From a virus: a DNA stretch of 40,878 nucleotides. The position numbers and the translations under genes are program-made. The notes beneath the pieces are model-generated. The model did not search any database. It was not told the origin of the DNA and saw only the letters and a list, made by a program, of their open reading frames with translations. Shown piece after piece: positions 10,348 to 39,111 of the stretch. The stretch lies in IMG/VR virus record IMGVR_UViG_3300034072_001941, positions 1-40,878 of that record; one strand, given 5' to 3'. The first letter of the stretch is position 1; the number at the start of each line of letters is the position of its first letter.

Positions 10348-11949
10348 ATGAACCACACGGAAGTCATGAACATCACCGTTTTGTCCTTGGGCGAACTGGT
10401 GGAACCGGCGGCCAATGCCCGGCGCAAGATGGACCCGGCCAAGCTGCAAGATTTGGCGCGGAGCATCTTGGCGGATGGGGTGTTGCAAAACCTGCTCGGC
10501 AAGGTCCGGGAGGACGGCAAGGTGGAGGTCGTCGCAGGGGCGCGGCGTCTCCGTGCGTCCCGTTTAGCGGTCGAGATGGCTTTGGAGCGGGGTTTGCAAG
10601 AGTTGGCCCGGGCGCGTGCCACTGTGCCCGTCCGGATCCTCACCACCGAGGAGGCGGCCAAGGCGGAAATCCTCCAACTGGTGGAGAACCTGCAACGGGA
10701 ATCGATGTCCATCCGGGACGAGGTGGACGGCCTGGGGCGGCTGGTCGATGCCGGGATGAGTGCGGACGAAGTGGCGGAGCGGACGGGCCTGGAATCCAAA
10801 TACGTCCGGAACCGGGTTCTTCTCCGGCGTCTCCCGGAATCTTTGATGGCGGCGCTCGAAGCCGGGAAGGTGCAGGTGAAGGCGTGCGAGCATGTGGCCA
10901 AGGTGCCGGGCGCGGAAGATCGGGAAGCTTTGGCGGTGCGCGTGCTGCGTCCGGAATCCTCCGAGCATCCGCTCACGGCGGAGGAGACGCTGGAAATCAT
11001 CCGGGATGAATATGTGATGCCTTTGGAGAACGTGATCTTTGGCCCGATGACGGAGCTTCATGGATTCCCGGTGTGCGCGGGCTGCCCTCACCGGATCATC
11101 AAGCAGCGGACCGGGGCGTGGTGCTCCAACGTGGCGTGTCTGCGGGAAAAGGCGGTGGCGGAGTTTGTGCGGGGAGAAGGCCGGGGCTCCGCGGACGATG
11201 TCCGGGTTTACACGGACATCGAAAGCGCCTGGACGGGTCCAGGTGGATCCCTTGCGGCGGATGCGCGGTATTTGGACACGGCGGCGCCGGTGCCTCCGCG
11301 TGAGTTGGGGCACTATGACGAGGTGCCGTGGTGGGTCTATCTGGACGAAAAGGTTCCGGGTTGGCGGGACGAAATCAAGACGTTCCGGGTGTTGCATCCG
11401 CGGACCGGGGTGGTGCATGTGGTGGTGGACAAGGGGGCGCTGAAGCTGCTGATCAAGTCCCGGGCGGAAGCGGCGCCGGTGCCCGCGGAGTCCCCGGGTT
11501 CTGCGGAGGGGGCTGAAGTCGACGGGACCGAGGAAACGCCGATGCCGGAAGCGCCATCCCGGGATCGTGGGCCCGCTCCGGAAGCGAAGGCGAAGACGAT
11601 GGAGCCGGGGGATTTGGCCATCTACCGGGGTTTGATCAACTCCACGGCGGCCATCGGCGGGGATGTCCTGTCCTTGCCATCGGTGCTCCGGTTTCTAGGG
11701 CATGTGCTGATGGTGACGATGCCGGCCGCGGATCTCCGCCGGTGGTGCGAGGCGTGCGGGGTGGACATCTCCGTGGAATCTCCGGCCGGGGCGATGACCA
11801 CGGCCATGGAGCATCTCCACCCGATCGTCCGCGAGGCGTGGATCCTGGCGGGGTTGACGATCCGGGACGCGGCGCATGCCTCGACGGTGACGGGGTTCAT
11901 CGATGACGCGTTGGAAGCCTGTGTGAAAGGAAAGGGGGTGGCGGCGTGA
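10348..11949 (+). CDS. ParB-like protein with a four-Cys cluster
   Basis: A 533-residue protein. N-terminal ParB/Spo0J-type domain (about 8-120) with AANARR, GVLQNLLG and VVAGARRLRA; then an HTH (SADEVAERTGLESKYVRNRV, 138-157) and a linker to C243xxC246H...C259xxxxC264, a probable zinc site. A low-complexity acidic/Pro stretch separates a C-terminal helical domain (about 410-533). ParB folds bind CTP and load on DNA; phage members act in plasmid-like partition, regulation or replication. No ParA is encoded near, so classic partition is unlikely. ATG at 10366 is an alternative start. Confidence 0.8.
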   Translation: MNHTEVMNITVLSLGELVEPAANARRKMDPAKLQDLARSILADGVLQNLLGKVREDGKVEVVAGARRLRASRLAVEMALERGLQELARARATVPVRILTTEEAAKAEILQLVENLQRESMSIRDEVDGLGRLVDAGMSADEVAERTGLESKYVRNRVLLRRLPESLMAALEAGKVQVKACEHVAKVPGAEDREALAVRVLRPESSEHPLTAEETLEIIRDEYVMPLENVIFGPMTELHGFPVCAGCPHRIIKQRTGAWCSNVACLREKAVAEFVRGEGRGSADDVRVYTDIESAWTGPGGSLAADARYLDTAAPVPPRELGHYDEVPWWVYLDEKVPGWRDEIKTFRVLHPRTGVVHVVVDKGALKLLIKSRAEAAPVPAESPGSAEGAEVDGTEETPMPEAPSRDRGPAPEAKAKTMEPGDLAIYRGLINSTAAIGGDVLSLPSVLRFLGHVLMVTMPAADLRRWCEACGVDISVESPAGAMTTAMEHLHPIVREAWILAGLTIRDAAHASTVTGFIDDALEACVKGKGVAA

Positions 11950-12191
11950 ACTCTCGGGTGTCTTATCAACGCGGGCGGGTGCGGGTAATCCGGCGAAAGA
12001 TCCGGCGGAAAGAACCGCGCCACAATGAGGTGATTGGGCGGGTTTACGTGGTGCAAGTGTGGACCAAAGGAAAGGGATGGGCGGATATTTTGGACCGCTG
12101 GAACTTCCTCCCGGCCCGGGCCATCGCCATGGCGCTTTCCCGGATCATCGGCGGGGAACGGTATCAAACCAAGGTGGAGGGCGGCGCGTGA
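11946..12191 (+). CDS. Small basic hypothetical protein
   Basis: An 81-residue protein from a GTG overlapping the ParB-like stop (GTGA). The first 30 residues are strongly basic (RGRVRVIRRKIRRKEPRH), then VIGRVYVVQVW, WADILDRWNF and a helix ARAIAMALSRIIGG. It looks like a small nucleic-acid-binding protein. No family recognised; position is directly upstream of the replication genes. Confidence 0.6.
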   Translation: MNSRVSYQRGRVRVIRRKIRRKEPRHNEVIGRVYVVQVWTKGKGWADILDRWNFLPARAIAMALSRIIGGERYQTKVEGGA

Positions 12192-12394
12192 TGGATGGGG
12201 AGATTTCGGGCTTGCCCTTGGCGGCGCAGTGTCTGGAAGGGGCCATCGTGCTCCTGACCCGGGCGGCGGACGAGGTGGGGAAGTTTGAGGGCGCTCAAGC
12301 GATCCATGAGGAAGCTTCGATCGACCTGGCGCTTGATCAGTGCCGGACGGTGAAGGCGTTTTTGAGAGACCGGATTTTTAGTGAGGCAAAGTAG
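12191..12394 (+). CDS. Small acidic hypothetical protein
   Basis: A 67-residue helical protein from the ATG at 12191, one base into the previous stop (a GTG at 12188 is in frame and would overlap as GTGA). It contains LPLAAQCLEGAIVLLTRAADE and LALDQCRTVKAFLRDRI, probably two or three helices. No family recognised. It lies just before the primase gene. Confidence 0.55.
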   Translation: MDGEISGLPLAAQCLEGAIVLLTRAADEVGKFEGAQAIHEEASIDLALDQCRTVKAFLRDRIFSEAK

Positions 12395-12396
12395 CC

Positions 12397-13560
12397 ATGG
12401 ACATCATCGAACGAGCCAAAAAACTAGCGGCCACGGCGCGGCCGGCGGTCCAGGGGCAGCATGGAAGCGGCACAACGTTTGCCCTGGCCGTCTCCTTGGT
12501 CCACGGCTTCGGGCTAGACCAAACCGATGCCCTGGCGGTGATGCTGGAAGACTGGAATCACCGGTGCATGCCACCGTGGTCTGAAGCGGATCTGGCCCGC
12601 AAGGTGCGGGAGGCGGCGGCCAAGGGGCGTCCTCCGGCGGGGAAAACCTGGGGATGGCTCCTCGAAGGGGCCCCGGCGCCGGATTACGGGACCGGGCGGA
12701 CGGTGCCGGCCGCGGGTTCGGTGGAGGCGCGGGCGTGTTTCAATCCGGAAGCGCTCCGGGCCAAGTATGTGCCGGAGTTCGGCCAGAAGAAGTGGTGGAC
12801 GTCGCGGTCACCGGTGCAACGCCCGGCGGAGGTATCGGCCACGGCGTATTTGGACGCGGTGTTCCGGCCCGGGGACAAGGTGCTGGTGTGCACTAGCAAG
12901 ACGAGCCAAGGCGATTTGCTTTATTGGGTGGGGCGTGGCTGGTTCCGGCTGGGGAATGCTCCGGGCATCCAAGCGGCGCCGTGTGATGCGCCAACCGGTG
13001 GCCCGGAGGGAGTGTGGTATCTTTCCAATCCGGTGACGGGCAAGTGGGCTTGCAAAGCGTGCCGGCATGAGGCCGGGCCGGGTGTCACGGGCCGGATTTG
13101 TGCCCAGCATGGCACCGCGCATTGGAACACGGCGGACCGGAACGGGTGGGTGCTCTCCCGGCGGGCGGAAGCAAACGTGGCGGATTTCCGCCACCTGGTC
13201 CTCGAACACGATCCACCGGAGCATGCGGACAAGCTGGAGCATGCCCAACTGTGGGTGTCGTTCTTGGCTCAATTGCCCATGCCCATCGTTTCGATCGCGA
13301 ATTCCGGTGGCAAGAGTTTCCATGCCGTGATCCGGCTGGAAGCCGCAACAAAGCGGGACTGGGACGAGCTTCGGTCGGTGTGCATCAAGTGGTTGGTGCC
13401 TTACGGCGCCGATCCGAGGGCCATCCGGGCGGTGCAACTGACACGGCTCCCGAACTGCATGAGGGGGAGTCAGAACCAAGAGTTGTTGTATCTGGATCCG
13501 GCGCCGGATGATGAGCCGGTGGCGGGGTGGAAAATGAATGTGGGAGGGCAGGGACGATGA
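12397..13560 (+). CDS. Primase of the archaeo-eukaryotic (AEP) type
   Basis: A 387-residue protein. Residues 1-80 form a PriCT-like helical unit (PPWSEADLARKVREAA). A Cys/His stretch 219-245 (CKACRH ... CAQHGTAH) may bind zinc. The catalytic AEP part has FRHLVLEHD (264-272, acidic motif), SIANSGGKSFHAVIR (299-313, the sGGKSxH motif), D339 and RLPNC (350-354). It should make primers for phage replication and partner with the helicase encoded two genes later. GAGG precedes the ATG at a usable distance. Confidence 0.8.
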   Translation: MDIIERAKKLAATARPAVQGQHGSGTTFALAVSLVHGFGLDQTDALAVMLEDWNHRCMPPWSEADLARKVREAAAKGRPPAGKTWGWLLEGAPAPDYGTGRTVPAAGSVEARACFNPEALRAKYVPEFGQKKWWTSRSPVQRPAEVSATAYLDAVFRPGDKVLVCTSKTSQGDLLYWVGRGWFRLGNAPGIQAAPCDAPTGGPEGVWYLSNPVTGKWACKACRHEAGPGVTGRICAQHGTAHWNTADRNGWVLSRRAEANVADFRHLVLEHDPPEHADKLEHAQLWVSFLAQLPMPIVSIANSGGKSFHAVIRLEAATKRDWDELRSVCIKWLVPYGADPRAIRAVQLTRLPNCMRGSQNQELLYLDPAPDDEPVAGWKMNVGGQGR

Positions 13561-13916
13561 AAACGAGAGTGATCGAAAGAGAAAGCAGTTGCGACACCGT
13601 AAGCCTGACTTTGGGCGATTGGATGGATTTCAACACTGGGGTGCCGATCCCGGACAAGTGGAAGGGTTTGCAGCCCTGGGATGTAGTGGCCTGGCAGACG
13701 GTGGATCACAAAGAGGAAGTAACGTTTCAAATCATTGCGGAAACCCCGGCGGAAAGGTTTGCTTTGGAGAACAGTGATAAACTCGTCTTGGAAGGTCACG
13801 AGTTTTTTCTCAAGCGCGTGGCTCGCAAAATCGTTTTCGGGGGTGTTGATCCGATTGAGTATTGGGAAGTTCGCGCGGTGCGCTTCTTTGAGCCGGAGGT
13901 TGACGCGGCCCCCTAA
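13557..13916 (+). CDS. Hypothetical protein between primase and helicase
   Basis: A 119-residue protein starting at the ATG that overlaps the primase stop (ATGA). It reads as a mostly beta protein (WDVVAWQTVDHKEEVTFQII, FFLKRVARKIVFGG, YWEVRAVRFFEPEV), possibly an OB- or PUA-like fold. The codon composition is a little less GC-rich than its neighbours. No family recognised; its place suggests a replication accessory role. Confidence 0.6.
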   Translation: MKTRVIERESSCDTVSLTLGDWMDFNTGVPIPDKWKGLQPWDVVAWQTVDHKEEVTFQIIAETPAERFALENSDKLVLEGHEFFLKRVARKIVFGGVDPIEYWEVRAVRFFEPEVDAAP

Positions 13917-13922
13917 AACGCC

Positions 13923-15635
13923 ATGGACAACGAACCCAATCAACCGGCCGCTGAAACGTTGGCCCGGGCGGCGGAGCTTGACCGCAAACTGTCCGAGTTG
14001 GCGGCGAAAACGGAGACGGTCTTCGATGTCAACGATCCCGTGGAGGTGATCGCCCGGAGCGTGGGCGAGGTCTTCCGGCCGCGCCGGGAGCTGTTTTTCC
14101 GCACGTCGGACCGGACGGTGGTGGCGCGGGGTGCGGATGGCCAATGGGAGCCGATGGACCAAACGTGGGCCGTCACGTATTTCCCGGAACACGGGGTGAA
14201 GTGGACCAAGGGCAAGCGCAAGGCGAACCTGAAGCAGCAAATGGCCGCGGAAATCCTTCGGGCCACCGCCTTCCGGGACGCTCTTCCGAAGCTGAACGGG
14301 GTGAACCCGGTCCGGCTCCCGGTGGTGTCGGAAGACCTGGACGAAAGGGGTTTCGCGAAGCGGAAGGGGTTCGGCAAGATCCGGCTGTTGCCGATCGGCT
14401 ACGACGAGGAAACAGGGATTTGGACGGAAGATGGGATCGATTACCCGGAGGACATTCATTCGGACGATGCGGTGGAGTGGTTTGATCGGCTCTACAAGTA
14501 TTTCGATTGGACGGATCCGAACCGCCAAGCGGTGCAAATGGCTGCCTGTCTGTCCGTTTACATGCGGGAGATGTTCGATGGCCGGCCCCCGATTTTCGTG
14601 TGGAACTCGAACATTCCCGGGTCTGGCAAGTCTCGCCTGGCGGAGATGATCGGCCGGATGATCTTTGGGGCGTGCGAGTCCATGACGTTGGACCAAATCA
14701 ACCGGCGGGAGTTGGAGCAACTCCTCCACACGTGCGCCTTGAATGACGAAAAAATCGTCTGGTTTGATGACGTGGAAGGCAAGCTCTACGCGTCCGAACT
14801 CCGGCAATGGGCCACGGCGAAGTCTCGCGGGGGCCGGGCGTTCCACTCCCAAAAGAAGTTTTACGTGGACCGGGTCCGGAGTGCCACGTTTGTGACCGGC
14901 ACTCACCTGAAGATCGACGAACACCTCGAACGTCGGTCTCTCTACGTCGACCTGTTCCCGGTCCTCGAAGCGAAAAACCGTCGTCTCCCGGCCGATGCCA
15001 TGGAGATCACGGACGAATGGCTGGACGATCCCGAAAACCGGTCCCGGTTCCTAGGTTGCCTCTGGGCGCTCGTCCGGAGGTGGGACGAGGCAAATCGCCC
15101 CCTTGGTCCACGCCCGAAGTTGGCCTCGTTCGAGGGTTGGTCCCGGATGGTCCCGGGCGCCGTGGCATGCGCGGGCTTTGGCGATTGCCTGGCGCCGTTT
15201 GAGGCTCCGGACGCCGGTGGCCTCGATACGTCCGAAGCCAAGCAGCTAGTGGAAGCGCTGATCAAGCACCACGCCAAGGAGTTCGACGGCAAGGGCTACG
15301 CGGACGCTCTGGACGTGATCGCGGAAGCGCGGAAACATCGGCTTTTCGTCCACGTCCTGGGAGACGTGGATCTGATCGTCCAAGACTTGGACCGCAACCC
15401 GCGGTGGCGTTGGGTGGCCAACGCGGACGGGGAAGAACTTACGATGGGGCAAAAGCTCCGGCAAGCGGCTCGATACCGGGACGCGGCCATTGATTCGAAG
15501 TGGGGCAAGCTGTGGAATCGACTCGCCTGCCAAGGCCGGACCTTCGTGGTGGACGGCCGGGCCTTTTCGTTTGGGCGCCGGGATGATACCCGGACGAAGC
15601 GTTATGACATTGTGGAGGTGGAGTTACCGGGATGA
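13923..15635 (+). CDS. Replicative helicase-like ATPase
   Basis: A 570-residue P-loop ATPase. Walker A is in NSNIPGSGKSRLAE (228-241), Walker B is KIVWFDDVEG (277-286), a sensor-like TFVTGTHLK is at 322-330, and an Arg pair (ERRSL, 336-340) could be the finger. This order fits the AAA+/superfamily 3-like helicases that follow AEP primases in phages and plasmids. The N-terminal 200 residues are probably a DNA-binding or loading region; the C-terminal region (about 430-570) may be winged-helix. No Shine-Dalgarno sequence is visible before ATG 13923. Confidence 0.8.
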   Translation: MDNEPNQPAAETLARAAELDRKLSELAAKTETVFDVNDPVEVIARSVGEVFRPRRELFFRTSDRTVVARGADGQWEPMDQTWAVTYFPEHGVKWTKGKRKANLKQQMAAEILRATAFRDALPKLNGVNPVRLPVVSEDLDERGFAKRKGFGKIRLLPIGYDEETGIWTEDGIDYPEDIHSDDAVEWFDRLYKYFDWTDPNRQAVQMAACLSVYMREMFDGRPPIFVWNSNIPGSGKSRLAEMIGRMIFGACESMTLDQINRRELEQLLHTCALNDEKIVWFDDVEGKLYASELRQWATAKSRGGRAFHSQKKFYVDRVRSATFVTGTHLKIDEHLERRSLYVDLFPVLEAKNRRLPADAMEITDEWLDDPENRSRFLGCLWALVRRWDEANRPLGPRPKLASFEGWSRMVPGAVACAGFGDCLAPFEAPDAGGLDTSEAKQLVEALIKHHAKEFDGKGYADALDVIAEARKHRLFVHVLGDVDLIVQDLDRNPRWRWVANADGEELTMGQKLRQAARYRDAAIDSKWGKLWNRLACQGRTFVVDGRAFSFGRRDDTRTKRYDIVEVELPG

Positions 15636-16507
15636 CTGGAAAGGAAGGATTGAATGAGTTGGCATTGTTCGCAGGCGCTGGTGGCGGAATTCTTGGCGGA
15701 AAACTCCTCGGGTGGAGAACCGTCTGTGCCGTCGAAATCGATGGCTATTGTCGGAAAGTCCTCATGCAAAGGCAAGACGACGGAATCCTTGAACCATTCC
15801 CGGTCTGGGACGATGTCCGAACCTTTGACGGAAGACCGTGGCTCGGCATTGTTGACGTGGTTTCTGGCGGGTTTCCGTGTCAGGACATCTCCGCCGCGGG
15901 GAAAGGCGCCGGGATCGGAGGGGAACGAAGTGGGCTGTGGGGAGAAATGGCGCGAATTATCGGTGAAGTTCGACCGCGTTTCGCGTTCGTGGAAAACTCA
16001 CCGTTGCTTGTGGGAAGAGGACTTAGTCGAGTCCTCGCTGATCTTGCCGCGATGGGGTATGATGCGCGGTGGGGTGTTGTGGGAGCGGTCCACGCCGGCG
16101 CACCTCACAAGCGGGAAAGAATTTGGATTGTGGCCAACGATTCGGAGTTCCGACGGAGAGAGGGGCGGACGCGGGGACCTCACCCCTCGGGCGTCTGCAA
16201 ACGAAAATCGGCAAACCAAACTAACGCCATCCCAAAAAAAAGGGAAGCACGGGCTGAGTCTGTGCGCGGCGGTAAATCTGTTTGCAACCCCGATCGCCAG
16301 AGATTGGAAGAGTGGAAAAGCATCGCAAAAAACTATGGAGAAGAATTCACGCCCCCTTTCGGAACAAATTGGTGGGATGTTGAACCCGAAGTGGGTCGAG
16401 TGGTTGATGGGGTGGCCTCTCGGGTGGACCGATTGCGAGCGCTTGGGAATGGACAAGTTCCCGCAGTGGTTGCGCTCGCATGGAGAATGTTAGGCGGCGG
16501 CGCTTAA
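15632..16507 (+). CDS. DNA (cytosine-5) methyltransferase
   Basis: A 291-residue Dcm-family enzyme. Motif I is ALFAGAGGGILGG (11-23), motif II ends in EID, motif IV is GGFPCQDIS with catalytic Cys83, motif VI ENS (121-123), motif VIII RERIWIVA (161-168), and motif X-like GNGQVPAVVALAW near the end. The target-recognition part between motif VIII and IX is short and polar. It probably protects phage DNA against host restriction. It starts within the helicase stop (ATGA). A second frame inside this gene is also coding-like (15654-16493). It ends 18 bases inside the convergent XRE gene. Confidence 0.9.
   Translation: MTGKEGLNELALFAGAGGGILGGKLLGWRTVCAVEIDGYCRKVLMQRQDDGILEPFPVWDDVRTFDGRPWLGIVDVVSGGFPCQDISAAGKGAGIGGERSGLWGEMARIIGEVRPRFAFVENSPLLVGRGLSRVLADLAAMGYDARWGVVGAVHAGAPHKRERIWIVANDSEFRRREGRTRGPHPSGVCKRKSANQTNAIPKKREARAESVRGGKSVCNPDRQRLEEWKSIAKNYGEEFTPPFGTNWWDVEPEVGRVVDGVASRVDRLRALGNGQVPAVVALAWRMLGGGA
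15654..16493 (+). CDS. Overlapping-frame protein inside the methyltransferase gene
   Basis: A 279-residue frame, shifted one base relative to the methyltransferase and almost fully inside it. It starts MSWHCSQALVAEF, continues with WKTHRCLWEE, LPRWGMMRGG, FATPIARDWKSG and PLSEQIGG, and ends with NPKWVEWLMGWPLGWT and DKFPQWLRSHGEC. I know this order from many phage proteins that lie in the alternative frame of Dcm-type genes. AAGGAAGGA sits five to eight bases before its ATG. Between methyltransferase motifs VIII and IX this frame keeps the more family-like sequence, which suggests selection on it. Function unknown; whether it is made is unproven. Confidence 0.6.
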   Translation: MSWHCSQALVAEFLAENSSGGEPSVPSKSMAIVGKSSCKGKTTESLNHSRSGTMSEPLTEDRGSALLTWFLAGFRVRTSPPRGKAPGSEGNEVGCGEKWRELSVKFDRVSRSWKTHRCLWEEDLVESSLILPRWGMMRGGVLWERSTPAHLTSGKEFGLWPTIRSSDGERGGRGDLTPRASANENRQTKLTPSQKKGKHGLSLCAAVNLFATPIARDWKSGKASQKTMEKNSRPLSEQIGGMLNPKWVEWLMGWPLGWTDCERLGMDKFPQWLRSHGEC

Positions 16508-28695: not shown

Positions 28696-30663
28696 GTGAA
28701 GGTTTCCGCTGAACTGACCCTGGAAATTGACCGTTTGCGGCAAAATGCTCAAGCGGCGGAAGCTCACCTCAAACGCGTGGGCGTGGTTGGCGCGGCGATG
28801 TCCGCGGGGTTGGACCGGTCAATGGCCGGGGTTGGGCGTGGGCTAGGGCGGAACATCGATACAAACCGGTTTCGTGGTCTGCAAAATGCCATCGCAACCA
28901 CCAACCAGCATGTGGCCAAATTCGGAGCTGGCCTTGGGGCGGCCATGGCCCAACAAGATTTCATTCAGGGCGGACCAAATCAGGGTTTCCGAGTTTTGGC
29001 CGGGGCCGCGGCCGGTGCCGCGGTAGTCTTGGGCGGGTCTTTTGTCGTTTCGTCGGTGAAGGCGGCCGCGTCCTTGCAAGATACAGAACTGCAAATTGCC
29101 CGGTTTTCCGGGTCTTTGGCCACGGCCCAATCTCTTATGGCCCAAGGGGTGGATTTGTCCGTCTCCACTCCGTTTGAGACAGACACGATTTTCGAACTCC
29201 AATCCGGGTTGCTCGGTGCCGGCATCGCGGCCCAAGACTTGATGGAAGACATCAAGCGCTTGGCCGCCGTGGCCCAAGATGATCAAGCGCTCCGGGAACT
29301 CGGTGATGTTTACGGCAAAGGGTTTGCCAACCAGAAATTTGACACGGAACGGATCAACCAGTTTTTGGACCGACGGATCAACCTGCTACCGGCGTTGCAA
29401 GGCGTGACCGGTTTGGGCTTGGACGATCTCCGGAAAGCGATCGAACAGGGCAAGGTTGGCATCGAAGAGATCCGGGCCGCGTTGGACCAAATGCGCGGGC
29501 CCGGCGGCCAGTTTTTCGGCATGATGGAAGCGCGGTCCAAAACGCTTCCCGGCCTTTGGTCCACCTTGGTGAGTAACTTGGCGGAAGTGCGGAAGGAATT
29601 CGGCGCGGCGTCCGTGGGGCCGTTGTCGGACGGAATCGAAACGGCGTTGGGGTTGATGCCTCAACTCACGGCCCGGGCCGGGGATTTTGGCCAATCAATG
29701 GCTAGTGCCATCGACATCTCAGTGGCGGGCCTGCAAGATTTGGCCGAAACCAAATTGGATTGGTCCAAGATCGGAGATGATTTTGTGATCGAGTTTCAGG
29801 GGGTTTTGAACCGGATCAATGCCTCGTGGACGCAAATGATCACGGAGCTTTCCCCTACTGGGTCGAGCAATTTCTTTGATTTGCTGCCTGGAAATGACAA
29901 AGTGGCCGGAATGGCCAGAAGTCTCCTGGAAGGAGAAATCAACCAGCAAGCCGGGAATCTGCATTACCTCCGGAACATCGAACTGCCGTTGGCCCGCGGC
30001 TTTGATTTGGAACCATTCATCGATTGGCCTGGCCGGACCGGGCAACCGTTCAAGCCGGGGGGAGCGGTGGAGTTTGTGCAGGGGCAGATTGCCAAAGAGG
30101 AGGCCAAGTTGGCGGAGTTGCAAGAACGGCTGAAAAAGCTCAATCCTCCCGGAGATTTGCGAGCCTTGAAAGAGGTGGCGGCGGTGGGGAATCCAAGTCC
30201 TGTTTCGTCCCCTTCCCTTGCTATCCGGCGTTTGAATGTGGAACTTGGAGACTTTCATTCTCCGGGTTATGACCCGGAAATGTTGAGCGAAGGTCTGGCC
30301 AAAGCGATGGCGCGGGCGGACGCGGCAATCAATCGCCGGGCATCCAAACCGGCTCCGGAGATGGGGCAATCTGAACCGGTGCCGGGCGATCCAGCAAACG
30401 AAGATCAATCCGGGAGCAGGCAATCATCCGGAGGCGGTCTTGGGCAATCTGAAGCATCCGGCCGTTATTTTGTCCCCGGCGTCATGGCCCAAGCCATCAA
30501 CCGGCTGACCCGGCGTTCAACGGCGGAGCTTGTCTATATGCAAGCGGAGAAACAAACGGCGTTGTTGGAAGGGATTGGGCGGAGTCTGAAGAACATCGAC
30601 AGCAAAATGGACCAACCTCAAACGGTTGCCGTGCCGGCGCCGGGAACGTTTGCAAAACCTTGA
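28696..30663 (+). CDS. Tape measure protein
   Basis: A 655-residue protein from a GTG with GAGG upstream. It has the TMP layout: N-terminal helical repeats, Gly/Ala-rich and hydrophobic membrane-type segment (VLAGAAAGAAVVLGGSFVVS, about 99-118), then the tape-measure domain (LQDTELQIARFSGSLATAQS ... GVDLSVSTPFET, GLGLDDLRKAIEQGKVGIEE, QMRGPGGQFFGMMEARSKT) and a low-complexity C-terminus. With about 0.15 nm per residue, the tail would be near 100 nm. This protein sets tail length and helps DNA pass the host membrane. Confidence 0.9.
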   Translation: MKVSAELTLEIDRLRQNAQAAEAHLKRVGVVGAAMSAGLDRSMAGVGRGLGRNIDTNRFRGLQNAIATTNQHVAKFGAGLGAAMAQQDFIQGGPNQGFRVLAGAAAGAAVVLGGSFVVSSVKAAASLQDTELQIARFSGSLATAQSLMAQGVDLSVSTPFETDTIFELQSGLLGAGIAAQDLMEDIKRLAAVAQDDQALRELGDVYGKGFANQKFDTERINQFLDRRINLLPALQGVTGLGLDDLRKAIEQGKVGIEEIRAALDQMRGPGGQFFGMMEARSKTLPGLWSTLVSNLAEVRKEFGAASVGPLSDGIETALGLMPQLTARAGDFGQSMASAIDISVAGLQDLAETKLDWSKIGDDFVIEFQGVLNRINASWTQMITELSPTGSSNFFDLLPGNDKVAGMARSLLEGEINQQAGNLHYLRNIELPLARGFDLEPFIDWPGRTGQPFKPGGAVEFVQGQIAKEEAKLAELQERLKKLNPPGDLRALKEVAAVGNPSPVSSPSLAIRRLNVELGDFHSPGYDPEMLSEGLAKAMARADAAINRRASKPAPEMGQSEPVPGDPANEDQSGSRQSSGGGLGQSEASGRYFVPGVMAQAINRLTRRSTAELVYMQAEKQTALLEGIGRSLKNIDSKMDQPQTVAVPAPGTFAKP

Positions 30664-33104: not shown

Positions 33105-35489
33105 ATGGTCCGCCTATACAACGATTTGGCCCGGCATCGCCTGAACGATACCACCGGCGCGGGCTCTTTTGATTTTCCAACGCTGAAGCAGGGCACGGAC
33201 TTGGTCATGGCCTTCCGCTTCCAGGCGCGGATTGATGGGGAATATATTGAAACGCCGCGGGATGTCCTTGGCGTCACGGCTACCATTTCCAAGGTGGACG
33301 CGCGGCCCACGGCGGGCACGTTCAGATTGACCACCGGAGTTTCGACCACGGCGGCGCTGGATTACAACGCGTCCGCGGCCGCATTTCAAACCGGCATGGC
33401 CACGCTTTACGGAGCGGTGGCCTTGGAAACGGTGCTCGTGGATGGGTCGTGGCTGGTGTTGTTTTCCGGGGAAATCGATGACCCTTCCGTCCGGGAGAAT
33501 GTCCTGTCTCCGTCCTCTTTCCTCCGGTGGACCAAAGAAGAGCAAGCGGATGGCACGTGGCTTTACGAGTTCCGCGCCGTGCAAGCTCCGGTGGCGTTCA
33601 CGGACACCTTCGAGCGGACGCTCCCGGAAGGGCCAAAGGTCGAAATCGTCCAAGAAGGGGCGTCTGTGGACGGCGTGTTGATTCCGGAAATCCAGGCACT
33701 GCGCTTGGATCCGTGGTTCGCGGGAGTGTATCGGTTGCGGCGGGGCAATGGCCGGGTGTCTGCGGATTTGTCCATCGATGACGGGCCGGAAGAGATCCAA
33801 GAAGCCATTCAAGCGTGGCTCACGACGTCGGAAATTGCCGATGGTGCGGAGCTGACTGTCACGCGTCCAGCGTCCGGGACCGCACACATCACGTTCGGCG
33901 GGGCGTTGGCCGGGGAAGATGAGGAGTTGATCACCGTGGAGGTGGTCGACGCTCCGGTGGGAGATCCCACGATCGTTCTTCCGCTCACCTGGCACTCGCT
34001 GAACACCGCTCTTCGGGGCAAGCAGTCCGAGACGTTCCAACTAGATCTCACGTGGAGACTCCGGGACGAAACCGCGGCGGACGATGACCTCGAAGCGGTT
34101 TACACGGTGACCGGCTATCGCGGGCCCATCACGATCGTGCCCAAGCTGGCGCCGGACAACGGGCTAAACGTTTACCCGTCTTGGGTCCGGCCAACGTCTC
34201 CCGAGACCTATCGTCCGTTTTCCCGGGATCAAATCTTTTTTGGAAGCCGGCATTTCATCTCGGAACCGATCGCGGCGTTTGGAACCTACGTCATCCCGCA
34301 CAATCTGGATTCAGAGCAATTGATCGTCACGGCCATCGATGCCGGGGGCTTGATCCGTTACGAGTCAGGGGTCGAAACCAGCATCGTTTCCCCGTCTGCC
34401 GTGGAGGTGACTGTGGGTTCTCCCGCAGACTTGCCGGTCCGGATTCTCATCTCCACCGTGGGCGCGGAAGAACACTTCTTGGCGCACACCCACACGTTGG
34501 GGGATTTGCCGGAGGTGGCCGCGCTTTTGGCGCAAATTGGCGCCCGGTTGACCGCTCTGGAAAATCTCCTCCCCTCTGGTTCACTCACCGCTTCCGACGA
34601 CACCGTGGCCGAAATCGCACGATGGACGTTGCCCACGGTCTCCACGGTCACCCCGTCCCGGAAACCGATCACGATTCCTGAAACGGGCATCCTGTCTCTG
34701 GACACCACCAAACTCCGCGGCGGGTTGCTCCCGGCGATCCACACCACCACGGCCCCAGCGGATTTGCCGTCCATGGCGGTGCCTCCGACGGAGCAACAAT
34801 CCGGCAAGGTTTACCGCAACGTCTCCGGATCATCGGTGATCGTGCCTGGCGGTGGCGGGCGTCCGTCCGCATCGGTGCCAAACAATGGCTTGGTGGGCGC
34901 GGCGTGGGATCCGGTGAAGCGGCGGGGAGCATGGTATCCAGTGGCTTTGAAAGCCGGAACCTCCTCTTACTACCCGTCCGCGTTCGACCTGCCGTTGTTC
35001 GAGTTGCTGGTCACGGCGGAACAGTTCCGGCTCCGGACTCGTTTCCGCGTGGAGTTTGGCTTTGATGCGGCGATTCTCAAATCCTCCAACCGCGTCCGCT
35101 GGCAACTGCTGGTGGAATACGGGTTGCCCACGGCGGCCACTTCCCCGGGCACGCCGGGCCCGAACCTTGAATCGATCACCTGGGACGAAGCAAACCCGGC
35201 GATCGACCAGACGCTCTACCTGGGGCCAACGCCCACCCGGCACCGGATCGGCCTCGAACTCGAACGCGTCCTTGCCTCCGGCGAGAACATGATCAAGGCG
35301 GAAAAATCCCTGTATGGCGCCCGGACCGTGGCCGGTGCTCCCACGGCGGCCACGTTTGGGATCCGGGCGCGGCTGGCTCGCTTCGACATTCTCGACGCCC
35401 CGGCGTTTGACGGATTGTTGGCCGTGCAAGGCCTGAACCTGCCCTCGGGCGAAACTGACATCCAACCGGGCTTTGCCTGGATCGCGTAA
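33105..35489 (+). CDS. Large tail/adhesion protein
   Basis: The largest tail gene after the tape measure, 794 residues. The N-terminal third is beta-rich (TLKQGTDLVMAFRFQARIDG) with repeated Val/Thr strands, then a region with FISEPIAAFGTYVIPHNLDS and HTHTLGDLPEVAALLAQIGA (a collar plus short coiled coil of fibre type, about 465-485). A Gly-rich hinge (VPGGGGRPSASVPNNG) leads to a C-terminal beta domain. It takes the place of the J-like tip protein of lambda but shows no J signature. Probably the main tip or side fibre. Confidence 0.65.
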   Translation: MVRLYNDLARHRLNDTTGAGSFDFPTLKQGTDLVMAFRFQARIDGEYIETPRDVLGVTATISKVDARPTAGTFRLTTGVSTTAALDYNASAAAFQTGMATLYGAVALETVLVDGSWLVLFSGEIDDPSVRENVLSPSSFLRWTKEEQADGTWLYEFRAVQAPVAFTDTFERTLPEGPKVEIVQEGASVDGVLIPEIQALRLDPWFAGVYRLRRGNGRVSADLSIDDGPEEIQEAIQAWLTTSEIADGAELTVTRPASGTAHITFGGALAGEDEELITVEVVDAPVGDPTIVLPLTWHSLNTALRGKQSETFQLDLTWRLRDETAADDDLEAVYTVTGYRGPITIVPKLAPDNGLNVYPSWVRPTSPETYRPFSRDQIFFGSRHFISEPIAAFGTYVIPHNLDSEQLIVTAIDAGGLIRYESGVETSIVSPSAVEVTVGSPADLPVRILISTVGAEEHFLAHTHTLGDLPEVAALLAQIGARLTALENLLPSGSLTASDDTVAEIARWTLPTVSTVTPSRKPITIPETGILSLDTTKLRGGLLPAIHTTTAPADLPSMAVPPTEQQSGKVYRNVSGSSVIVPGGGGRPSASVPNNGLVGAAWDPVKRRGAWYPVALKAGTSSYYPSAFDLPLFELLVTAEQFRLRTRFRVEFGFDAAILKSSNRVRWQLLVEYGLPTAATSPGTPGPNLESITWDEANPAIDQTLYLGPTPTRHRIGLELERVLASGENMIKAEKSLYGARTVAGAPTAATFGIRARLARFDILDAPAFDGLLAVQGLNLPSGETDIQPGFAWIA

Positions 35490-35498
35490 AACACACTC

Positions 35499-36272
35499 AT
35501 GGCCGTTCCTGTCATCGATCCTGTTACCTCCGTCCTCGTGATGACACGAGGGCGGGCCTATGCCTTTCAACCGGCCTTGGCGCCAGGATCGGACGCGGCC
35601 ACGTCGTGGTCTATCGTTTCCGGCGGTTTGCCCACCGGTCTGACGCTGAACACGACCACGGGCCGGATCTCCGGAACTCCCGATTCCGAGTCCGAGGGAT
35701 CCACCTTCCGCGTGGGTCTCCGGGCCACGAACGGGGACGGGAACTCGGCAACCGTGATGCTGACCATCGGCATCGAATACGCTCCGACCGATCCTCACGG
35801 GGGCATCGATGCGGTGATCGATCTGGATTCCGGAGTCCTCGGGTTCGTGGGTCTCCAGCAAAAGACGGAGGACAACCGCGCGGTCTGTCACGTCCGGCGC
35901 GGGGATGAGTTCCCGCTCATTGTCCAGTTTATCCGGCGCGGCCGGGTCATCGATCTGCCCGCGGTCACCATGCGGGCCACGGCCAAACGCCGGGAACCGG
36001 ACGCCCCGATCAATCTCCAGGCGCTGAACGATTACCTCGTCTACAAGCAAGGCGAAGGGGAAACGGCACGTTACTCGATTTGGCTCTCCCTCAAAGACGA
36101 TACGTTCGCCAACGATCTGTCCGAAGACGAAGCGGACGAAGGCACGGCGGTGCCTTACATCGGGGAAATTCACTGGACTTACAGCGTGTCCATGGGTGAA
36201 CAAAATCTACGGACCGCGCGGCGTTCCACGCTGGAATTTTATTGGGTGATTCACCGCGATTCCTTGCCATGA
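35499..36272 (+). CDS. Tail protein with putative Ig (He_PIG) and BppU-like domains
   Basis: A 257-residue protein. Residues about 10-95 match a putative Ig domain: SWSIVSGGLPTGLTLNTTTG then RISGTPDSESEG and FRVGLRATNGDGNSATVML. The C-terminal half (RGDEFPLIVQFIRRGRVIDL, MRATAKRREPDAPI, LEFYWVIHRDSLP) resembles the baseplate upper-protein (BppU) N-terminal fold. This points to a surface adhesion or fibre-attachment role. ATGA overlap with the next gene. Confidence 0.7.
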   Translation: MAVPVIDPVTSVLVMTRGRAYAFQPALAPGSDAATSWSIVSGGLPTGLTLNTTTGRISGTPDSESEGSTFRVGLRATNGDGNSATVMLTIGIEYAPTDPHGGIDAVIDLDSGVLGFVGLQQKTEDNRAVCHVRRGDEFPLIVQFIRRGRVIDLPAVTMRATAKRREPDAPINLQALNDYLVYKQGEGETARYSIWLSLKDDTFANDLSEDEADEGTAVPYIGEIHWTYSVSMGEQNLRTARRSTLEFYWVIHRDSLP

Positions 36273-37198
36273 GCATTCCTCCCCGCATGACGTTTCCTTT
36301 CGCCCATCATGTGGCCCGGGCGGGGCATGATGTCCGCCGGATTGGTTGGACGGACAAATGGTGGCGTTATCGGGGCGGTATTTGGTTCGTGGTAAGTGGC
36401 GGCGTGCAACGCGTGGCCGAAGCGGCGGACATCACCGAAGCGGACATCTTGGCATGGGATTGGACTACGGCACCCGTAGATTGCGATTTGGCGGACGGTC
36501 CAGTGGATCCGGCCGTTTTGCTGACTGTGCGGCCATTCGACGGCACGGCGCCGGTCTCGGATCCGTTTGGCCAAGGGTGTGCTTTGCCGGAATTGGCCCC
36601 GATCGAAACGCAGACGTTCCCGTCTTTGACGGTGCCGCCGGTCGATGCGGACGGGGTTTTGGTGCGGGCGGATGCTCCGGACCCGTTGTTGTTGCCTTCT
36701 CCCCCTAAGGGACCGGAATGGTTGCCGATGCGTAGGCAACGGCGCGAAACCGCGGCACCTCCTCCGGTTGATCCGGTCCCGGATCCGGCTCTCGTCTTTG
36801 CATGGACCCTAAACACGAATCTGCCCGATTATTTGGGCTATGTGGACGGATCCGCGTGTGTCGAACCGGTCTACGTCATCGAGGACGGTGTTACCATTAC
36901 GATTTATGGCGGTGGCGTCCAATTCACTGGCGGCGCGGCTGGCAGTAATTATCTGGTCACCATCGGTTTGGAAGGCTCCGTGGGAGTCATCACCGAACAA
37001 TGGTGGCAAAGCACAATCGCGGTGGGAGTGTTGGTCTCGTGGACCGTGCCTCCACAGTTTTCAGCGAAGACGTTGGCGATCGGTGAACAAATTTCAGTCT
37101 TGGCCACTTGGGAAAAAGTGGGCGGAGGGGCTAGCGGCTCGTCCAGCAAAACGGTGTTGATCCCGTCCGTATGTGGAGGTGTCGGCAGTGGCCAGTAG
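36269..37198 (+). CDS. Tad2/DUF2829-like domain fused to a tail-locus protein
   Basis: A 309-residue protein from ATG 36269. Residues 8-67 match the DUF2829 (Thoeris anti-defence Tad2) pattern: TFPFAHHVARAGHDVRRIGW, a strand WRYRGGIWFVVSGG, then DITEADILAWDWTT. Tad2 proteins bind the signal nucleotide of Thoeris. The rest has a Pro-rich linker (about 95-170) and a C-terminal beta domain of about 120 residues (DGVTITIYGGGVQFTGG, SVGVITEQWWQSTIAVGVLV). It sits among tail genes and ends ten bases inside the glycosyltransferase gene, so it might also be purely structural. Confidence 0.6.
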   Translation: MSIPPRMTFPFAHHVARAGHDVRRIGWTDKWWRYRGGIWFVVSGGVQRVAEAADITEADILAWDWTTAPVDCDLADGPVDPAVLLTVRPFDGTAPVSDPFGQGCALPELAPIETQTFPSLTVPPVDADGVLVRADAPDPLLLPSPPKGPEWLPMRRQRRETAAPPPVDPVPDPALVFAWTLNTNLPDYLGYVDGSACVEPVYVIEDGVTITIYGGGVQFTGGAAGSNYLVTIGLEGSVGVITEQWWQSTIAVGVLVSWTVPPQFSAKTLAIGEQISVLATWEKVGGGASGSSSKTVLIPSVCGGVGSGQ

Positions 37199-38624
37199 TT
37201 CGCGGCTCATCATTGCCGTGGGCGGAGTTCCGGCGGAGCTCGATCCCGGGGACATTCTCCGCACCATGCCGAATTTCCCTTCCGCCCGGTCCGTGGACCT
37301 TCTTATGCGGGAAACGGGCGCGGCCACGGTCCGCATCGTCACCCCTCCGGAAACAACGTTCGCTGTCGTCGTCACGGCTCACCGTCCTTATGTGCCGTTT
37401 TTGCTAGATGTCCTCGTGGCGTGGTTTATGGAAAACCCGGGCGGGGAACTAATACTCGCTCTTGATGGGGTCGAGGCATCCGAGTTCCCGGACCCGTCCG
37501 CGTTTTGGACCGTGATCCGTGGCAACTGGGGACATCCGGCGGATGCCCGAAACGCGGCCTTGGATCACGTCACCGCGGAGTGGGTCCATTTTTGGGACGC
37601 GGACAACGAGGTCCCGCGTGACATCGGAGCATCGGCGCGGGCCGCGCTCTCCGGGGTGGCGCACGAAGCCGGCTACCTGGGCCCTTGGTGCACTCCCGGT
37701 GCCGATGCCCGGGACGCTTGGGGCATCGATACCAACGGCCTTTGGAGGACGCGTGCCGTGCGGATGGCCGGAGGATGGCCGCGGACATGGTTAGAAGATT
37801 GGGCACTCGGGGTTCGCGTGCAAGGCATTGGTTTCCGGGCGGAGCGGTGGGCATCCGGCGCAGTGCGGAGAGATCATCCAGGGCAACGAGGCAAGACGAG
37901 GGGCAAACACGAAGCGGTGTGGAGTGCCCGCGTTCTCAGCGTCATCACATTGCAACGGACCGTGTCAGGCTTTAGAAAATGGGTGGAAGCGTGGGCCCGT
38001 CAAAGGAAGCCATCTCCGGACAACCTCCGTTTGATCATTGGTTGCGAAGGTGCGGACGTGGAAATGGAAGCGCGACTCGCTACGTTTGCGACACTCGGGG
38101 CCGCATCCGTGACCATTTGGAACACTGGTTCCACGGCGGTGTCTTTCGGCTCCGTCCCGGAACCGGTCAGACATTCCCGGGTTTCAGGCCTATTTCTTCG
38201 GGCGGCTCAATACATTTCCCGGGAATCGTCCATCGTCCTGACCTGGGAAGATGATGTTTTTCCGGACCGGGACGATGCCATCGAAGCGCTGTCGCTAGCC
38301 CTTCCCGTAGAATCGGGAATTGGCGCCGTGGCCAGTGCCTATCCTGGCCGTCAAAATACGAAATTCGCCGTGGCTTCCAGACGCGCGGACCGGTGGGAGG
38401 GAGTTTGGCGAATGGATGAACTGCCGGACCATCCGATCGACGTGGGAACTGTGGGCGCTGGATTCACCCTGTGGCGGGCTTCGGTCTTGGAAACGATTTC
38501 CGGTGCCGTGCAACGTCCAGAAGTCCCGTTGGGCTGGGACGCGTGCGCCTCCGCGGAGGTTCATCGAAGCGGGCGGCGGGTCTTGCTGCACGGCGGTGTG
38601 AAATGCGCCCATGGGGCCTATTGA
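37188..38624 (+). CDS. Tandem GT-A glycosyltransferase (family 2-like)
   Basis: I start it at GTG 37188 because GGAGG lies eight bases upstream; GTG 37173 is also in frame. The 478-residue product has two GT-A-like halves. The first (58-235) has FAVVVTAHRPYVPFLLDVLV, ARNAALDHVTAEWVHFWDAD with the metal-binding DADN (137-140), and WLEDWALGVR (201-210) as the base-containing motif. The second (279-470) has LRLIIGCEG, SSIVLTWEDDVFPD with DD 355-356 and WRASVLETISG. No membrane segment. It may glycosylate phage fibres or host surface sugar; the neighbours favour the virion. Confidence 0.75.
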   Translation: MASSSRLIIAVGGVPAELDPGDILRTMPNFPSARSVDLLMRETGAATVRIVTPPETTFAVVVTAHRPYVPFLLDVLVAWFMENPGGELILALDGVEASEFPDPSAFWTVIRGNWGHPADARNAALDHVTAEWVHFWDADNEVPRDIGASARAALSGVAHEAGYLGPWCTPGADARDAWGIDTNGLWRTRAVRMAGGWPRTWLEDWALGVRVQGIGFRAERWASGAVRRDHPGQRGKTRGKHEAVWSARVLSVITLQRTVSGFRKWVEAWARQRKPSPDNLRLIIGCEGADVEMEARLATFATLGAASVTIWNTGSTAVSFGSVPEPVRHSRVSGLFLRAAQYISRESSIVLTWEDDVFPDRDDAIEALSLALPVESGIGAVASAYPGRQNTKFAVASRRADRWEGVWRMDELPDHPIDVGTVGAGFTLWRASVLETISGAVQRPEVPLGWDACASAEVHRSGRRVLLHGGVKCAHGAY

Positions 38625-39111
38625 CAGCTTGCCGGGATTCGTGCGGTTGGTCTTTCAGCGTGGAAACGACATCGGGGCGGCCTTGATCCGTTGGCATTCG
38701 CGTTCCCCCTGGAATCACGTGTGCATTTGGGACCCGCAGACCATGACCATGTGGGAGGCCCGGCAATCCACCGGTGTCCGCCGTTACGATCACTGGTGGC
38801 CATCGCCAAAAGACCGCGTGGCCCGCTTCGCCCAACCTCTGGACGAGCACCAACGGAGGCGCATGGTGGATTGGCTCAATCACCAAATCGGCAAAGGTTA
38901 CGATTGGGGCGCCGTGCTCCGTTTTGTTTCGCGGCGGAAGGTGAACCCGGCGGAATCCTCCCGGCGTTGGTTTTGCTCTGAACTGGCCGCGGCCGCGTGG
39001 ACCATGGCCACCGGTGGAATGTTGCTCCGTCTCCCCTCGTGGAAAATCTCCCCCGGTCTTCTTTACGCGTCCCCTCTTGTGATCCCTGAACCGATGTTCC
39101 GCCCCGCATGA
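38611..39111 (+). CDS. Permuted NlpC/P60-like papain-fold hydrolase
   Basis: A 166-residue protein whose order of residues is that of the permuted papain fold (YiiX/YebB type): His36 in SPWNHVCIW, Glu49 in MWEARQSTGV, and Cys122 in RRWFCSELAAAAW. It may cut peptidoglycan peptides, as an endolysin or a virion entry enzyme, or deacylate lipids. It overlaps the glycosyltransferase by 14 bases and the following membrane protein by ATGA, a lysis-like pair. Confidence 0.75.
   Translation: MGPIDSLPGFVRLVFQRGNDIGAALIRWHSRSPWNHVCIWDPQTMTMWEARQSTGVRRYDHWWPSPKDRVARFAQPLDEHQRRRMVDWLNHQIGKGYDWGAVLRFVSRRKVNPAESSRRWFCSELAAAAWTMATGGMLLRLPSWKISPGLLYASPLVIPEPMFRPA

Follow-up and report, generated by a model that had tools for sequence, protein, structure and literature searches.

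Gene content of the distal-tail end

The window, that is the whole stretch of DNA that was analysed, is 40,878 bases long and constitutes the entire IMG/VR virus record IMGVR_UViG_3300034072_001941. Its portal and terminase are distantly related to those of Akkermansia phage Moulinsart, with 28% and 38% identity respectively. The distal-tail end of the genome holds a 309-aa ORF (36269..37198, plus strand) for a fusion protein that joins a predicted Tad2-fold N-terminal domain, a Pro-rich linker and a C-terminal domain, and that has a full-length homologue with a conserved ATG in one other phage lineage (L229). Because the relatives start at the same point (MT(T)IPxK), ATG 36269 is taken as the correct start. 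It overlaps, in an ATGA, the stop of an upstream He_PIG (Ig-like) partner gene (35499..36272, plus strand; Pfam He_PIG, E 1.9e-14), while a family-2 glycosyltransferase gene (37173..38624, plus strand; E 3e-5) overlaps the 3' end of the fusion gene. The location between adhesion-type and glycosyltransferase genes given in the original prediction is thus correct. The gene order reads tape measure (28696..30663, plus strand; marker of the tail module, by annotation match and synteny), three more tail genes, a 794-aa distal-tail protein (33105..35489, plus strand; homologues in G051, G053 and, by eye, G054), He_PIG, the 309-aa ORF and the glycosyltransferase. The tape-measure and distal-tail genes are syntenic with those of two other phages.

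Directly after the glycosyltransferase, positions 38611-39111 hold a gene that matches phrog_1128 (E 4e-20) and, weakly, a permuted papain-like C92 amidase (E 0.03); judging by these matches, its product is possibly a wall-active or lysis enzyme. Elsewhere in the window, a single block (10348-16507) carries a ParB-like gene, a primase-like gene, a 570-aa protein (phrog_10537) common to Caulobacter and Brevundimonas giant phages, and a DNA methyltransferase. The last three are also present in Moulinsart, in a different order.

Within the fusion protein, the Tad2-fold domain covers residues ~7-69 (36287..36475, plus strand), as delimited by profile searches, profile-profile alignment and an AlphaFold model. 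It is followed by a family-specific extension (residues 72-112; 36482..36604, plus strand), in which Cys72, Cys104 and the motifs TVRPxDG and DPxGxxCxLP are conserved in four members. The Pro-rich linker to which the domain had been predicted to be fused is indeed present, with 16 Pro in 65 residues (113-177; 36605..36799, plus strand), and the same fusion recurs in L229. The 132-aa C-terminal domain (36800..37195, plus strand) is weakly conserved with that of L229 and looks beta-rich, by eye only; no recognised family and no recognised adhesin fold were found for it.

Relatives and a recurrent adhesin-type cassette

Searched as a single sequence, the 309-aa protein matches nothing in Pfam, PHROGs or PDB and is without a close relative among phage records; early single-protein scans of viral contigs gave no full-length relative, and their sole N-domain match (L001) runs antisense to another frame and was judged spurious. 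A DNA pattern for RRxGWxDxW retrieved one true relative (L123, the same contig as L225), the alignment of which led to L226, L227/L228 and L229, and a family-HMM search added G054 (L212). Tad2-fold relatives are therefore known from four further IMG/VR phage lineages (L226, L227/L228, L229 and G054). Short matches in G063, G064, G073 and G088 were not counted because these loci had been chosen by the same motif, and a Bacillus KLEB27-3 baseplate match (H83, E 10) falls in unrelated sequence. Terminase and portal queries returned no genome relatives. Neither the Pfam Tad2 profile (PF11195) nor the 309-aa protein matched any of 50 records with related terminases, and a six-row family profile matched none in 49 of them; the family is therefore sparse in that set.

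The heads are conserved, at 46-53% identity among the window, L226, L228 and L229, and the C-parts have diverged, their identity being weak or undetectable across the family. The architecture of the fusion is the same in L229 as in the window, with 39% identity along the entire protein. L226 and L228 encode the head on its own, in a gene for 115-116 aa that is followed by a separate ATGA-overlapping gene for a Pro/Ser-rich linker and C-part, and the similarity of these C-parts to the C-domain of the window protein is not significant. G054 has two tandem copies of the Tad2-fold gene, in the second of which the domain is fused to yet another C-domain.

Several features of these loci are worth recording separately. 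The separate linker genes (L226 4350-5450, L228 6852-7847) encode mucin-like PPSSS/PPSST repeats, which may be a glycosylation target, and then a short Cys-containing C-terminal domain, with the motif YYSDGTNFWQ in that of L226; in both phages the repeat gene adjoins a gene for a GT29-plus-methyltransferase fusion. DUF4417-type nuclease-like genes precede He_PIG in L226 (2411-3235) and, by eye, in L229 (414-1031), and are not seen in the window. In G054 (L241 3473-4572) the tandem genes follow a He_PIG gene at an apparent prophage end, with MocR-like and FUSC-like host-type genes downstream, by eye. A Gly/Thr-rich linker precedes the domain in the first copy; the second carries a ~160-aa C-domain, whose lectin-like appearance was dropped from consideration as it found no support in Pfam or PDB.

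One constant feature of all these loci is the He_PIG gene, which every relative (L226, L227/228, L229 and G054) carries immediately ahead of its Tad2-fold gene. Between phages, the He_PIG proteins (compared for L226, L228 and L229) and the Tad2-fold parts are 46-55% identical, far above the values for TerL (only ~22%) and tail genes (21-38%) in the same phages; this excess conservation of the He_PIG/Tad2-fold pair is what would be expected of a mobile adhesin module. A structural model of the He_PIG protein matches bacterial SraP adhesin domains in PDB (Z ~9.5) and Ig/tail-fibre phage proteins in BFVD. An initial impression of a BppU-type attachment domain in its C-terminal half was confirmed neither by Pfam nor by PDB comparison.

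In the window and in G054 a 794/777-aa tail protein stands ahead of the pair, which closes the tail gene cluster, while in L226, L228 and L229 the pair precedes the terminase genes; the term 'tail locus' is therefore true of the window and G054 only. Sugar-modifying enzymes lie beside the pair in four of the five lineages: the family-2 glycosyltransferase in the window, a methyltransferase plus GT29 in L226 and L228 (the latter by eye), and in L229 a probable glycosyltransferase (by eye) followed by a sulfotransferase. No recognised sugar gene was found downstream of the pair in G054. Among the neighbours of the cassette, no defence or counter-defence genes were found.

Relationship to Tad2 and changes on the pocket side

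The first ~70 residues had been assigned to DUF2829/Tad2 from the letters alone, and profile searches, profile-profile comparison and the predicted fold all bear out this relationship. Over the whole 40.9-kb record, the PF11195 profile has a sole match, at 36287-36367 (7.1 bits, E 0.38, below the curated Pfam cut-off of 25 bits). PF11195 is also the sole Pfam match of L226, L228 and one G054 copy (E 0.12, 0.16 and 1.4), again with scores under that cut-off (13.4, 13.0 and 10 bits). An HMM built from 18 diverse phage Tad2-like proteins places the 309-aa frame at the top of 758 window frames (E 0.06), and under this HMM the window, L226 and L228 domains each beat 5000 of 5000 shuffles and the L229 domain 4999 of 5000. 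Comparison of the six family domains with the 18 Tad2s (hhalign) yields a probability of 86% and E 5e-6 over 63 collinear columns. Conversely, the six-domain profile finds seven matches at E<=10 among 177,635 PDB sequences, all of them Tad2/AcrIIA7 (best E 0.019), and the family HMM ranks six Tad2s at the top against 19,526 unrelated frames (best E 1.8e-4). When the domain was run by tblastn against 2.3 Gb of phage records, the top match, though at E 7, was likewise a DUF2829 gene. We regard it as established that the N-terminal domain of the 309-aa protein is a remote homologue of Tad2/DUF2829 (PF11195).

Tad2 sponges are homotetramers; the domain was modelled as a monomer. Its AlphaFold model, based on four family sequences, has the order alpha-beta-beta-beta-beta-alpha-beta, with pLDDT 65-75 across most of the core and a low overall mean of 54. 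Plain Foldseek against PDB did not place Tad2 among the best 50 matches listed; the Tad2 matches came from VIA re-alignment of Foldseek's 320 candidates, in which all seven listed Tad2 entries (apo, and with gcADPR, hisADPR or cGG) rank first, at Z 6.2-6.8 and rmsd 2.0-2.4 A over ~59 residues (model 8-69), against Z 2.1 for the best non-Tad2 chain. In a Foldseek search of BFVD, several DUF2829/Tad2-like models stand near the top. The comparison with Tad2 structures that had been proposed as a check thus speaks for the relationship, and the domain is predicted, at modest pLDDT, to adopt the Tad2 fold.

Conservation was compared at the 16 positions kept in at least 13 of the 18 Tad2s. The family keeps hydrophobic and Gly positions among these as well as the core: F7, A10, G17, R22, W25, D79, D84 and W85 of Tad2 are present in the window and three relatives (L226, L228 and L229), and the invariant residues R22, W25, D79, D84 and W85 correspond to R24, W27, D59, D64 and W65 of the 309-aa protein. 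None of the six family domains has lost R22, W25, D84 or W85; four of them also have D79, which is Glu in the G054 copies. Trp73, found in 18 of 18 Tad2s, is missing from all six domains (Ala, Thr or Ile; Ala in the window), the placement of this column hinging on a one-residue alignment gap. In the NGK loop, N26 is replaced by Thr or Val and G27 by Asp in every family domain, K28 is retained in part, and S76 is not retained. The window protein has T28-D29-K30 (36350..36358, plus strand) in place of this loop, and D54 (36428..36430, plus strand) near the site of Trp73; D29 and D54 are both invariant in the six domains, and the motif TDxWW is conserved in four members. The beta2-beta3 insertion, which forms helix alpha2 in Tad2, is absent from four of the six domains (alignment of the window, L226, L228 and L229), and in the window model strands 31-35 and 38-43 are linked by a short turn at that point.

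The gcADPR pocket of Tad2 is formed by the beta1-beta2 loop, the beta3-beta4 loop, beta4, the beta4-alpha3 loop and alpha3, the V-shaped dimer uses alpha2/beta2, and the cyclic-dinucleotide site lies in the beta2-beta5 insertion (PMC12043709). On this assignment, made by segment from that review and not by single contacts, the residues lost by the family (N26, G27, W73 and S76) map to the beta1-beta2 loop and the beta4/beta4-alpha3 segment. Since the substitute residues are themselves conserved, the pocket side appears remodelled and not merely decayed. These losses, together with that of the insertion in four of six domains, speak against the original reading of the domain as a sponge for the Thoeris signal. 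Tad2 ligands differ across the family, however, and include gcADPR, hisADPR and CDNs (PMC12043709); since functional divergent Tad2s also differ in ligand, loss of residues is no proof of lost binding.

Interpretation and comparison with known systems

We judge the domain to be more likely a module put to new use than a weapon against host defence, because it forms the head of an apparent tail adhesin and because its pocket-side residues have changed. The best explanation, to which we assign a probability of roughly 0.6, is that the Tad2-fold domain forms the base of a tail adhesin, or serves in its assembly, within a mobile cassette composed of the He_PIG Ig protein, the Tad2-fold domain with its Pro-rich linker and diverged C-domain, and a sugar-modifying enzyme. 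At the distal tail, the domain would associate with the He_PIG protein, form oligomers, or do both; the linker would project the C-domain outward, and the adjacent glycosyltransferase or sulfotransferase would modify the adhesin or a host glycan. The homology, the predicted fold, the make-up of the cassette, the pattern of conservation and the lost pocket signature are computational results; that the protein is part of the virion, that the domain has an anchoring role and that it sequesters no nucleotides is what we infer.

The domain could instead be a genuine sponge, made late in the infected cell and not brought in by the virion, with gcADPR, hisADPR or a similar immune nucleotide as its ligand; the remainder of the protein would then be an unrelated fusion partner. 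The clear homology, the predicted fold, the retained core (R22, W25, D84 and W85 throughout, D79 in four domains), the existence of the domain as a free protein in L226 and L228, and the variability of ligands among Tad2s would all suit such a role. We nevertheless think it unlikely, in view of the loss of W73 and of NG from the NGK loop in all six domains and of helix alpha2/insertion in four, the constant Ig-like partner gene, the frequent sugar-modifying enzymes, the lack of defence or counter-defence genes among the neighbours, and the position of the cassette at the end of the tail cluster in two genomes.

Quite improbable in our view is a pocket rebuilt around D29 and D54 for a sugar or sugar nucleotide, serving the adhesin or the neighbouring glycan enzymes. 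Such re-use is consistent with the conservation of the altered loops and with the sugar-modifying gene downstream in the window, L226, L228 and L229, but G054 has no such recognised gene after the pair, and the invariant Asp residues are possibly structural. That the resemblance arose by chance or convergence, in a small alpha-beta domain that happens to have GW...DW motifs, is very improbable: single-sequence scores do fall under the Pfam cut-off, PHROGs gives no match and model confidence is modest, but reciprocal profile searches return Tad2s first (among ~19,500 frames) or exclusively (in PDB), the alignment is collinear across the entire domain, and Tad2-like folds are matched in two structure libraries.

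Proteins that enter the cell with phage DNA normally come from inside the capsid or from the lumen of the tail, as the tape measure does, and an Ig/adhesin-linked distal-tail protein remains outside. Least credible of all, therefore, is the proposal that the virion carries the protein in its tail and injects it, so that the Thoeris signal is neutralised immediately: the gene does adjoin distal-tail genes, but adhesin-side proteins are not ejected with the DNA, a sponge acts stoichiometrically while few copies per virion would enter, and the Tad2 pocket signature is lost. The original interpretation is accordingly upheld in part and weakly: the Tad2 relation, the fusion and the gene's place stand, the reading as a sponge finds no support, and injection is unlikely.

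A Tad2-like match in a phage genome nowadays easily leads to an anti-Thoeris annotation. A Tad2 fold in an adhesin-type cassette, with an altered pocket signature, implies that annotation by fold or motif only over-calls anti-defence genes. The family also raises the question of the origin of Tad2 sponges. We advance as a speculation, on balance doubtful, that phage tail adhesins contain a structural sister family of the Tad2 fold, whose pocket, rebuilt round the two invariant Asp, binds a new ligand (such as a glycan or nucleotide sugar); in that case either the sponges would descend from a domain of the virion, or a sponge would have been taken up into virions. In a limited literature search we found no description of a Tad2-fold domain in a cassette of the tail-adhesin type.

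With Tad2 itself (DUF2829, PF11195; SPO1 gp34.65, ModTad2) the family shares the predicted alpha-beta4-alpha-beta fold (rmsd ~2 A over 59 residues), the N-terminal FxxA...GxxVxRxGW and C-terminal D..LAxDW blocks, and the invariant R/W/DW core. It differs in having neither the NGK loop nor Trp73, in the absence, from four of its six domains, of the beta2-beta3 insertion with helix alpha2, in its added conserved 40-residue extension with two Cys, and in being fused to or paired with adhesin-like parts among tail or late genes. The AcrIIA7/HgmTad2/SptTad2 branch belongs to the same fold family and is matched by our family profile, but its members bind cyclic dinucleotides via a long beta2-beta5 insertion, which the window domain is without. 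The csAssE-Sib DUF2829 protein (252 aa; L085), the best tblastn match mentioned above, likewise joins a Tad2-like domain to another part; there, however, the domain is C-terminal, W73 is kept (NWNPTEHD) and the gene lies among small non-structural genes. In its organisation, the cassette resembles He_PIG/Ig-like tail proteins and tail-fibre operons with glycosyltransferases, with which it shares the He_PIG overlap, the conserved head and diverged C-part, and the sugar enzyme downstream.
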